Shown piece after piece: positions 5,321 to 59,867 of a stretch of 64,000 nt of DNA (position 1 is the first letter of the stretch; every line of letters begins with the position of its first letter). Below the pieces are notes generated by a model that saw only the letters and a list, made by a program, of their open reading frames with translations, had not been told where the DNA came from and made no database searches. Origin of the DNA: Balneola sp. (GTDB taxonomy: Bacteria; Bacteroidota; Rhodothermia; Balneolales; Balneolaceae); NCBI GenBank assembly GCA_002694685.1, contig NZMW01000010.1, forward strand, positions 372,001 through 436,000, written 5' to 3'. The position numbers were made by a program, and so were the translations under genes.

Positions 5321-5405
5321 TTGCTACGACGCAGAGCGATCGTAGCAAGTCGACTTTAGTTTGCTTATACCTACTCGTGCCGACGCTCTGCGTCGGCACG
5401 TTTTT
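5321..5405. repeat. Inverted pair of REP-like hairpins (BIME-like); second one doubles as terminator
   Basis: The first hairpin, 5321-5348 (plus orientation), has arms TTGCTACGA/TCGTAGCAA around CGCAGAGCGA. The second, 5376-5400 (minus orientation), has arms CGTGCCGACG/CGTCGGCACG around CTCTG and is followed by TTTTTAT. Read in their own orientations both carry the CGCAGAGCG core. The second is followed by GAG, like the other members of this family in the window (see 33453, 35326, 38219, 57456, 59178, 59822). Confidence 0.75.
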
Positions 5406-33105: not shown

Positions 33106-33452
33106 AACGAAGTCATCAATTCATGGTGCTTAAAACAGTCCGGTACTAATAACTGATAATTGCATAAAGCATTTGGGACAAGGATATAGTTATCGAATGA
33201 GGGGAACTGTCTGGGGAGAAATACTAAAGTTTACTTCATAGTGTGCTTTTATTTGAAGCAACTCCGACCAATATACGGTAGAGGAGCCTGGCTGACCAAA
33301 TCTATTTTGTTTTGGCAGTTCATTGGTTCCTATTCGGTAAGTAATAATAGGTAATAGTTAATCAATGTAGTTTTATATGCCTTCAATGAGGAGAAGAATG
33401 GGGGTGAGTCGAAAAAGAAAAATCTAAAATAGCAGACTTAATGCGTATTCAA
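33106..33452. other. Gene-free remnant region
   Basis: No frame with recognisable protein. The stretch at 33269-33320 (CCAATATACGG, GGAGCCT, GACCAAA) matches, with several substitutions and a short gap, the segment at about 614-650. A short frame reads PIYG.GA..TK in both copies, which suggests a shared decayed coding or mobile sequence. Confidence 0.4.
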
Positions 33453-33483
33453 CTGCGTCACGAAGCAAGAGCTTCGTGACGAG
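33453..33483 (+). repeat. REP-like hairpin repeat (GTCACGAAGC arms)
   Basis: GTCACGAAGC (33457-33466) pairs perfectly with GCTTCGTGAC (33471-33480) around AAGA, and is preceded by CTGC and followed by GAG. It belongs to the same family as 35326-35375, whose arms are almost identical. Confidence 0.8.
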
Positions 33484-35232: not shown

Positions 35233-35325
35233 GTAACAGCTGATTAATTTAAATACGTAGGATTATACAACCCAGAAGTGCCTTTTACAAAAGGGGAGGA
35301 AAGAAAGCCCCGGATATTTTAGTGG

Positions 35326-35375
35326 GAAGCTGGAGCTTCTCCGGTGGCGTCACGAAGTCAGAGCTTCGTGACGAG
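35326..35375 (+). repeat. REP-like composite repeat: two hairpins
   Basis: Hairpin A: GAAGCT GG AGCTTC (35326-35339). Linker TCCGGTGGC. Hairpin B: GTCACGAAG (35349-35357) and CTTCGTGAC (35364-35372) around TCAGAG, followed by GAG. The same A-linker-B-GAG plan is seen at 38219-38269, 59178-59224 and 59822-59867. Confidence 0.85.
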
Positions 35376-38218: not shown

Positions 38219-38308
38219 CTCGTTGCTAAGCTCTGGCTTAGCAACGCAGTCCCGGAGGCTCCAGCTTCCTAGGTAGCATGACGAAGCAGGAGCTTCTTGT
38301 CGCGTACG
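38219..38308. repeat. Inverted pair of REP-like repeats
   Basis: 38219-38269 is a full composite in minus orientation. Hairpin B arms GTTGCTAAG/CTTAGCAAC surround CTCTGG, preceded by CTC (GAG on the minus strand); the linker is GCAGTCCCGG; hairpin A is AGGCTCCAGCTTCC. 38272-38308 is a degraded plus-orientation copy (GACGAAGC ... GCTTCTTGTC, with AGGAGC at the apex). Together they resemble a BIME. Confidence 0.75.
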
Positions 38309-57455: not shown

Positions 57456-57480
57456 CGCTCCGATGCTCTGCGTCGGAGCG
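57456..57480 (-). repeat. REP-like hairpin repeat (CGCTCCGA arms)
   Basis: CGCTCCGA pairs with TCGGAGCG around TGCTCTGCG. On the minus strand it reads ...CGCAGAGC... and is followed by GAGTAGG, exactly as the copy at 5376-5400 is. Confidence 0.8.
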
Positions 57481-59077: not shown

Positions 59078-59177
59078 AGCGGAAAAAGAGGTTGATTAAT
59101 GTACGCATCAATCATAACCAAAAGTGCTGAGTTTTGATAGTACTGATTATGCTTCTTCTCGTTAGTTCTCGTTAGTT

Positions 59178-59224
59178 CTCGTTGAGTAGCTCCGCTGCTC
59201 AATGTCCCGAAGAGGCTCTGCCTC
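59178..59224 (-). repeat. REP-like composite repeat, left flank of the RAYT gene
   Basis: Minus orientation: hairpin A GAGGC AGA GCCTC, linker TTCGGGACA, hairpin B TTGAGCAG ... CTACTCAA with GGAGC at the apex, then CGAG. The first 25 bases on the plus strand (starting CTCGTTGAGTAGCTCCGC) are identical to the inverted end of the right-flank copy. To the left the motif TTCTCGTTAG is repeated (59155-59180), reiterating the ACGAG end. Confidence 0.88.
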
Positions 59225-59270
59225 AAAAAAAGATTGTAAGGAATGCCTTTCATATCCCTCTAACCGGTAA

Positions 59271-59816
59271 AAAGACAAGGGAAAAACGAGATTCAAGTTT
59301 AAAGAAGAACATTATCCCTATTTAATTACCTGTACCACAGTAAAAGGGATTTCGTTATTTGTTTATCAGGATATTAGCAAGATCATCATTGAGTCCATAA
59401 AACATCTTCAAGACAAAGAAAAGGTAGATGTATATGCGTATGTGCTTATGCACAATCATATCCATATGATCATTCAGGCAGAAGGCTTACCTGATATAAT
59501 AAGAAAGTTTAAATCGTACACGGCCAGATGCATTATTGATTATCTGAAAGCATTTAACCGCAGATATTTTCTTTCGGAATTGAAGGCTTATAAGCATTCG
59601 AAGCATAAAGATAGCGAGTATCAGATTTGGCAAGAAGGGGTGCATCCCAAGCAGGTTTCAAATTTGGAAATGATGCAGCAGAAAATTGAATATGTGCATC
59701 TAAATCCGGTGAAAGCAGGATTTGTAGAATTACCTGAGCATTGGAAATATTCATCAGCTCGAAGCTACTTGGGTGAGGATAATACTGTGGTTTCAGTTAA
59801 ACTATTCTCAGGGTAA
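59271..59816 (+). CDS. REP-associated tyrosine transposase (RAYT, Y1_Tnp/IS200-like), N-terminus uncertain
   Basis: The open frame gives about 181 residues but has no ATG, GTG or TTG before the GTG at 59442. Family text begins earlier (KFKEEHYPYLITCTTVKGISLF), so the gene either uses an unusual start or has a frameshift near 59288. Upstream, in another frame, IPLTGKKTREKR looks like the missing lead-in. The HUH motif LMHNHIHMII and the region EYVHLNPVKAGFV...PEHWKYSSARSY, containing the likely nucleophile Tyr, are intact. Such single-copy transposases act on flanking REP hairpins. Here inverted hairpin repeats lie 47 bases before the open frame and 5 bases after its stop. Confidence 0.85.
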   Translation, partial: KDKGKTRFKFKEEHYPYLITCTTVKGISLFVYQDISKIIIESIKHLQDKEKVDVYAYVLMHNHIHMIIQAEGLPDIIRKFKSYTARCIIDYLKAFNRRYFLSELKAYKHSKHKDSEYQIWQEGVHPKQVSNLEMMQQKIEYVHLNPVKAGFVELPEHWKYSSARSYLGEDNTVVSVKLFSG

Positions 59817-59821
59817 AAAGA

Positions 59822-59867
59822 AGGCGGAGCCTCCGGGTGGCGTTGAGCAGCGGAGCTACTCAACGAG
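59822..59867 (+). repeat. REP-like composite repeat, right flank of the RAYT gene
   Basis: Plus orientation: hairpin A GGCGGAGCC, linker TCCGGGTGGC, hairpin B GTTGAG ... CTCAAC with GGAGC at the apex, then GAG. Its last 25 bases are the exact inverse of the left-flank copy's outer end, so the RAYT is bounded by 25-bp perfect terminal inverted repeats, 690 bp apart in total. Confidence 0.9.

Follow-up and report, generated by a model that had tools for sequence, protein, structure and literature searches.

The window, that is, the whole 64,000-nt stretch of Balneola sp. DNA analysed here, carries at 59178–59867 a 690-bp unit in which the frame of a predicted RAYT (an HUH/Y1 single-strand DNA transposase) stands between its own inverse two-hairpin repeats (Table 1). 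The boundaries given in the initial annotation were borne out, as was its description of a RAYT frame enclosed by inverted two-hairpin ends: the protein passes the NCBIfam REP-transposase cut-off, and folding of each end placed hairpin B outside and hairpin A inside on both flanks, as had been proposed. The outermost 25 nt (59178–59202 and 59843–59867) are exact inverse copies, again as annotated, and become 26 nt when one further outward base is counted; they sit in a 47-nt inverted repeat with 85% complementarity. In the folds, B consists of 11 bp with a 3-nt loop and A of 4–5 bp (z=−3.4 and −3.0 for the two ends). A 19-nt piece of the arm, searched through the window with up to 3 mismatches, matched only the two unit ends (0.02 matches expected from shuffles), and a 22-nt arm pattern found no further place in the genome at ≤2 mismatches and one at 3 (C1:104100). 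Just before the left end, at 59156–59179, two direct copies of TTCTCGTTAG repeat the first bases of that end, which could be a sign of slippage or of a cleavage or target motif.

Table 1. Features of the RAYT unit and the other composites found in the window, which are of another class (window positions)
Feature	Position	Strand	Details
Dispersed partial composite, outer hairpin, 4-nt loop, AAGCTC core	33447..33483	-	R2 32.1 bits (L137)
Dispersed composite, 4-nt loop class	35325..35375	-	R2 48.7 bits (L126)
Dispersed composite, 4-nt loop class	38219..38269	+	R2 54.4 bits (L084)
Left outer hairpin B, CTC foot	59178..59204	+	CTCG-TTGAGTAGC-TCC-GCTGCTCAA-TG
Left inner hairpin A	59211..59225	+	GAGGC-TCT-GCCTC core; 6 nt inside B
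Promoter-like bipartite element	59235..59264	+	TGTAAGGAA-N15-TCTAAC, exact match; proposed ECF -35/-10
RAYT/TnpA_REP frame	59277..59816	+	HNHIH ~59451-59465; Tyr 59691-59693
Right inner hairpin A	59820..59834	-	Fold and inverted repeat
Right outer hairpin B	59841..59867	-	Fold and inverted repeat; outer 25 nt = inverse of left end

The open frame (59274–59816, plus strand) comprises 180 codons and a stop. Its product matches Pfam Y1_Tnp (E=3.5e-7) and scores 100.1 bits against the NCBIfam model REP_Tyr_transpos (NF047646, cut-off 80), which places it in the RAYT family; against the IS200 equivalog model NF033573 it reaches 22.3 bits, below the cut-off of 55. H62, H64 and Y140, the last of which we take to be the catalytic tyrosine, are invariant across 15 aligned RAYTs. 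An AlphaFold2 model computed from 15 sequences (pLDDT 89.9) has as its best PDB match 4er8, the REP-bound TnpA_REP (rank 1, E=8.8e-8, TM 0.69/0.74), followed by TnpA of ISDra2 and of the IS608 type. The initial annotation described a Y1/HUH frame with an intact HIH motif. The HNHIH motif, Y140 and the family match are in place, but the start codon is missing. The first ATG, GTG or TTG in the frame is a GTG at 59442, and the codon at 59277–59279 is AAG where the relatives in genomes G004 and G005 have ATG (TTATGGG in both, ACAAGGG in the window). Judged from this alignment, the start codon appears to have been lost, or swapped for something unrecognised, and a copy without ATG may be weakly expressed or decaying. 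The orthologue in G004 contains an internal stop.

Relatives of this RAYT were found in all ten genomes of the genus, G008 having only a distant one (E=1.2e-7), and the flanks of those read follow one plan, with a CTCG foot, a hairpin B of 11 pairs, 5–7 nt, and a hairpin A of 5–6 pairs. The CTCG foot occurs in 31/31 aligned composites, which had been chosen by CTCG; as the foot is CTCG and not GTAG, these are not classical GTAG REPs. The stems differ between lineages through compensatory pair changes, with 45 two-sided changes for A2 against 13.7 in shuffles and 31 for A3 against 9.7 (0/500 shuffles in each case). By script, A and B have equal loop lengths in 30 of the 31 composites, and on re-reading in the 31st too. 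The two hairpins also have a loop-proximal core in common: 135 of 180 positions in 30 composites, compared with 101.8 (sd 6.0) and 0/10000 shuffles, or 72 of 96 compared with 54.6 (2/20000 shuffles) when one composite was kept for each of 16 loci. Since core and loop length are shared by A and B within each RAYT lineage, both hairpins are probably read by one enzyme. The RAYT tree makes two or more changes of loop length probable, the deciding fork having a support of only 84/89. Four loci (L009, L010, L016 and L025) bear an additional, different outer hairpin (ACTGGTTCCGC...).

Because a joint alignment of all 31 composites misplaced the loop gaps, two covariance models were built by loop length, R1 (3 nt) and R2 (4 nt), from 17 + 13 composites, with L007:1439–1485 left out for its 5-nt spacer and three end coordinates corrected by hand. 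These models recovered dispersed composites that an exact-arm search had almost missed owing to the variation of the stems. Given as lower bounds, since 150 candidates were scored per genome (47 in the order survey), the window's own genome holds at least 21 R1 and at least 16 R2 matches at E≤0.01, the two sets overlapping and some matches being weak, and the ten genus genomes, all of which have composites, range from 9 to 86 (R1) and from 12 to 77 (R2). The genome search called for in the initial annotation thus returned dispersed copies in the form of related composites, the exact arms being confined to the unit's own ends. None of the own-genome dispersed copies listed has the exact arms of the window RAYT, and several of them agree with it in core and inner hairpin. 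The window RAYT had also been put forward as the probable source of the related hairpins elsewhere in the window, a suggestion that did not hold up. The three other composites belong to another loop and core class (4-nt loops, AAGCTC core), the one found at RAYTs L021 (G004) and L024 (G002), and the arm does not recur at ≤2 mismatches; on these features the window RAYT is probably not their source. A second RAYT of the close group was not found in the own genome beyond that of the window.

Among 128 genomes of the order, 28 have both a RAYT (called at E≤1e-20) and composites, 15 a RAYT only, 9 composites only and 76 neither, an association with a Fisher p of 3e-10 when relatedness is ignored. 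The composites are therefore in excess and are not equally common in genomes without a RAYT, and the identification as a RAYT/REP locus stands on this dispersal together with the family score and a fold nearest to REP-bound TnpA_REP. The nine composite-only genomes carry at least 1–8 copies each (E≤1e-5) and argue against strict dependence; their copies could be orphans, or the genomes could have sub-threshold RAYTs, G008 with its distant RAYT being one of the nine. Two further hairpin types were seen. At a more distant RAYT match (L005:1887–1913, G000:C11) there is a palindrome with a GTAG foot, which looks like the insertion of a classical REP, and window positions 5376–5400 and 57456–57480 show another hairpin family (CTACTCG...GCTCTGC...CG), unmatched by R1 or R2 in the own genome at E≤0.01.

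Inside the 690-bp unit, between the inner hairpin A and the gene, lies a bipartite element that the initial annotation does not mention. The window copy is TGTAAGGAATGCCTTTCATATCCCTCTAAC, and no second site turns up in the window at ≤2 mismatches (0.34 expected). For TGTAAGGAA-N15-TCTWAC, 19 sites in the own genome match exactly and 9 with one mismatch, and at ≤2 mismatches there are 50 compared with 21 for the reversed control; the ten genus genomes together have 177 exact sites compared with 0. Across the order the element was found in 63/128 genomes, concentrated in the family of the window, and the exact reversed control gave 3 matches in all 128. The listed sites of a sister genus mostly end in GTCTWAC. 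Part of the sites are imperfectly palindromic (GTAAG...CTTAC), a form that would fit a dimeric regulator as well.

The association of the element with RAYTs is closest for the near relatives. When near-complete close RAYTs are defined by ≥39% identity over ≥165 aligned residues (20 of the 51 homologue rows of the genus), the element precedes 20/20, 15 exactly and 5 with one mismatch. The other 31 rows, distant or cut-off RAYTs, include 9 with the element (e.g. G000:C2:82040 and G000:C10:441743) and 19 without (e.g. G004:C6:118409, G001:C8, G007:C161, G007:C220 and G002:C15), leaving aside three rows, two at contig ends and one not read. At the RAYT loci read outside the genus, a site stands just upstream in 21/21, with 0, 1, 2 and 3 mismatches in 5, 6, 5 and 5 cases. 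To see whether composites also flank the other genes behind the element, 154 element loci (54 + 100) were searched with R1, which matched outside RAYT loci at L151, L238, L243 and L163, of which L163 is beside a RAYT.

The first ORF was read after 146 of the 177 exact sites (139/145 in G000–G007, 5/12 in G008 and 2/20 in G009; six RAYT sites in G000–G007 were left out, so that RAYTs are under-counted), and at 140 of these an ORF of ≥55 codons started within 260 nt. The families of these 140 ORFs include four-helix bundle (28), RAYT (14), SSB (9), RecQ, GIY-YIG and TPR (8 each), ComM-type, ComEC-type, integrase and SMC_N/RecF-type (7 each) and RecA (5). Across the genus the element stands before ssb, recA, recF, recQ, radC, comM and comEC; genes for an integron-type integrase, for IS200-like and four-helix proteins and for small nucleases also follow it. 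The own-genome integrase is of the integron type (449 bits, cut-off 265), RecF and RadC there score above the cut-offs of their equivalog models, and RadC and ComEC stand behind one-mismatch sites. As to DNA uptake, comEC, comM, ssb, recA and radC carry a site, and neither dprA nor pilus genes appear among the 25 families listed of the 50 matched for the 140 ORFs; we know of no role in uptake for the four-helix-bundle genes, the commonest class. Start codons lie as close as 4–5 nt after the element, and 25/140 within 10 nt; the starts were chosen mechanically from the longest frame, and some of the very short distances are artefacts. Such distances are as for leaderless transcripts. In the sister genus (G010 and G011), 32 of 33 further exact sites led to 29 ORFs, among them 7 RAYT, 7 GIY-YIG, 3 IS200, 2 ComM-type, 2 RadC, 2 four-helix, 1 integron integrase and 1 DUF559.

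Several single loci add to this picture. In G010, GIY-YIG copies at L336, L347, L350 and L351 are 90–96% identical to L336, mostly with a start 5 nt behind the element, and three further sites (L338, L349 and L352) fall at contig ends; perhaps gene and element form a recently multiplied single-gene unit. L090 (G000:C2:103245–103274) is an exact element without an ORF, upstream of a PAS-domain gene, followed after ~80 nt by a terminator-like hairpin with a T-run, and is a candidate small RNA of the putative regulon. L001 and L002 (G000:C4) are two IS200-like transposases with palindromic ends, the L001 gene having an upstream element (L095).

The element at L103 has an ECF-sigma-like gene on one side and a TPR gene on the other, and in 8/8 genomes (G000–G007) the sigma-like ORF ends 0–8 nt before it. 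The protein falls below the curated cut-offs (Sigma70_r2 17.1 bits vs 24; sigma70-ECF 36.9 vs 42.9), and its best PDB profile match has E=0.13. Its structural model (pLDDT 69) retrieved sigma factors at the top ranks of Foldseek, mostly ECF and SigW first (E=7e-3), with none below 0.001. A fixed bipartite element before several genes and its linkage to a sigma-like gene are both as in an ECF promoter class; the element would then be a promoter read by the adjacent ECF sigma, which we infer to autoregulate through it.

The locus is of the REPtron/TIRtron type and close to the published subclass 2.6. In the part of Quentin et al. 2018 consulted (PMC6006769), subclass 2.6 of RAYT/TnpA_REP takes in its 40 Bertels group 5 members, and has the NH[LIV]H and WQ motifs, ~180 aa, and genes lying between 'atypical secondary structures' of which the genome contains further copies, all of which recall the window locus. 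The NHIH and WQ motifs match, whereas YVHLNP of the window RAYT differs at two positions from the YIH[QN]NP given there, and the two-hairpin composite and its covariation, described here for the window RAYT class, go beyond that portion of the account. The same applies to TIRtrons (TIRYT; Di Nocera et al. 2013, PMC3733652, of which a portion was consulted), likewise RAYT-like genes enclosed by long terminal inverted repeats, of which some contain double palindromes and some make up moderately abundant families: co-change of the A and B cores and a built-in, shared putative promoter are features of the window class. With E. coli TnpA_REP and its GTAG REPs the window class shares the fold, 4er8 being the best structural match, and the HUH/Y chemistry, but it differs in having a CTCG foot and two unlike hairpins per end. 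Alternative sigma factors can also control late competence regulons, as ComX does in streptococci. The arrangement seen here is similar in that one putative promoter class precedes ssb, recA, radC and comEC-type genes, but the candidate is ECF-type, occurs in another lineage, and also precedes RAYT, IS200-like, integron-type integrase and small nuclease genes. Among openly accessible journal papers, the search brought up none that ties RAYTs to competence or to a sigma factor; PMC6006769 (main text) and PMC2817692 contain none of the words 'promoter', 'competence' and 'sigma', and where PMC3686654 uses them, in a few places, it does so in other connections. The locus belongs to a known type, a domesticated transposase gene of the RAYT kind flanked by hairpins, and its new part is the apparent built-in promoter shared with a putative regulon.

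We think it fairly probable that this RAYT/REP locus, the hairpins of which would be cut by its own enzyme, belongs through an ECF-type promoter to a competence and ssDNA-recombination regulon. The RAYT would most likely recognise and cut the hairpins on single-stranded DNA, and an active RAYT would spread the composites. Since the predicted promoter between the inner hairpin and the gene is shared with ssb, recA, recF, recQ, radC, comM, comEC and the integron-type integrase, the RAYT would be made during DNA uptake and ssDNA recombination, when its single-stranded substrate is present. We advance more tentatively, at chances slightly below even, that throughout the family one ECF-type promoter joins DNA uptake and ssDNA recombination with enzymes of folded ssDNA and with small genes, RAYTs belonging to the competence stage and composites being spread or exchanged in transformation.

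At the level of the unit itself, the initial annotation had taken the 690 bp for a self-contained RAYT/REP locus. Perfect inverted ends, and the several related copies held by most genus genomes, would fit an IS-like transposon moving as one unit, but the surroundings in G004 indicate otherwise: there too the RAYT adjoins the ppx orthologue (85% protein identity), and the gene for the M14 peptidase (82%) lies ~6 kb away on its other side. Since both genes flank the RAYT in G000 and G004 alike, vertical descent and not a recent jump is indicated; moreover, the dispersed copies listed for the own genome are composites, and the NF033573 score is only 22 bits against 55, so that we regard such a transposon as very improbable. 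About evenly balanced, and compatible with the family-wide proposal, is that the window copy is a dead relic whose hairpins are kept by slow decay only. The AAG in place of the ATG of two relatives, with the GTG at 59442 as the next start, and the interrupted G004 orthologue point that way, but otherwise the 180-codon frame reads through, neither its catalytic residues nor the promoter-like element show damage, and the hairpins are near-perfect at both ends.

The element itself could also be read in other ways. It might be the operator or promoter of a DNA-damage (SOS-like) response, with a damage-induced RAYT in an otherwise ordinary RAYT/REP locus. recA, ssb, recQ, recF and the integron integrase are plausible damage genes, some sites are quasi-palindromic, and in Vibrio cholerae expression of the integron integrase follows SOS induction, according to the part of PMC8191803 consulted. 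The set, however, also includes comEC, comM and radC, the element keeps a fixed spacing and approaches start codons to 4–5 nt, and the ECF-sigma-like gene ends 0–8 nt before it in 8/8 genomes, which makes this explanation unlikely. Rather unlikely, too, is that the element is an autoregulatory site of RAYTs or a selfish add-on by which mobile small genes (RAYT, IS200-like, GIY-YIG and four-helix) copy a host promoter, with no link to uptake. The frequency of such genes behind it (28 four-helix, 14 RAYT and 8 GIY-YIG of 140) speaks in its favour, as do the near-identical G010 GIY-YIG copies with their three contig-end sites; yet ssb, recA, recF, comEC and comM carry the element genus-wide at near-constant positions, and since these are housekeeping-type genes, the host too has it as a signal of its own.

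The consulted part of PMC6006769 describes as an open question how, and for what reason, tnpA_REP genes persist, and an element shared with ssb, recA, comEC and the integron-type integrase leads to a direct hypothesis, namely that RAYTs act when single-stranded DNA is imported. It would suggest when these enigmatic enzymes are made, and it turns the sigma-like gene into a candidate competence regulator, while the unexplained four-helix, GIY-YIG and PDDEXK_3 genes gain a common context. If the competence reading is true, RAYTs with their composites, IS200-like transposases and the integron-type integrase would form a guild handling folded ssDNA, accompanied in its regulon by the small four-helix-bundle, GIY-YIG and PDDEXK_3/GxxExxY genes, and RAYTs would act on incoming or recombining single-stranded DNA.
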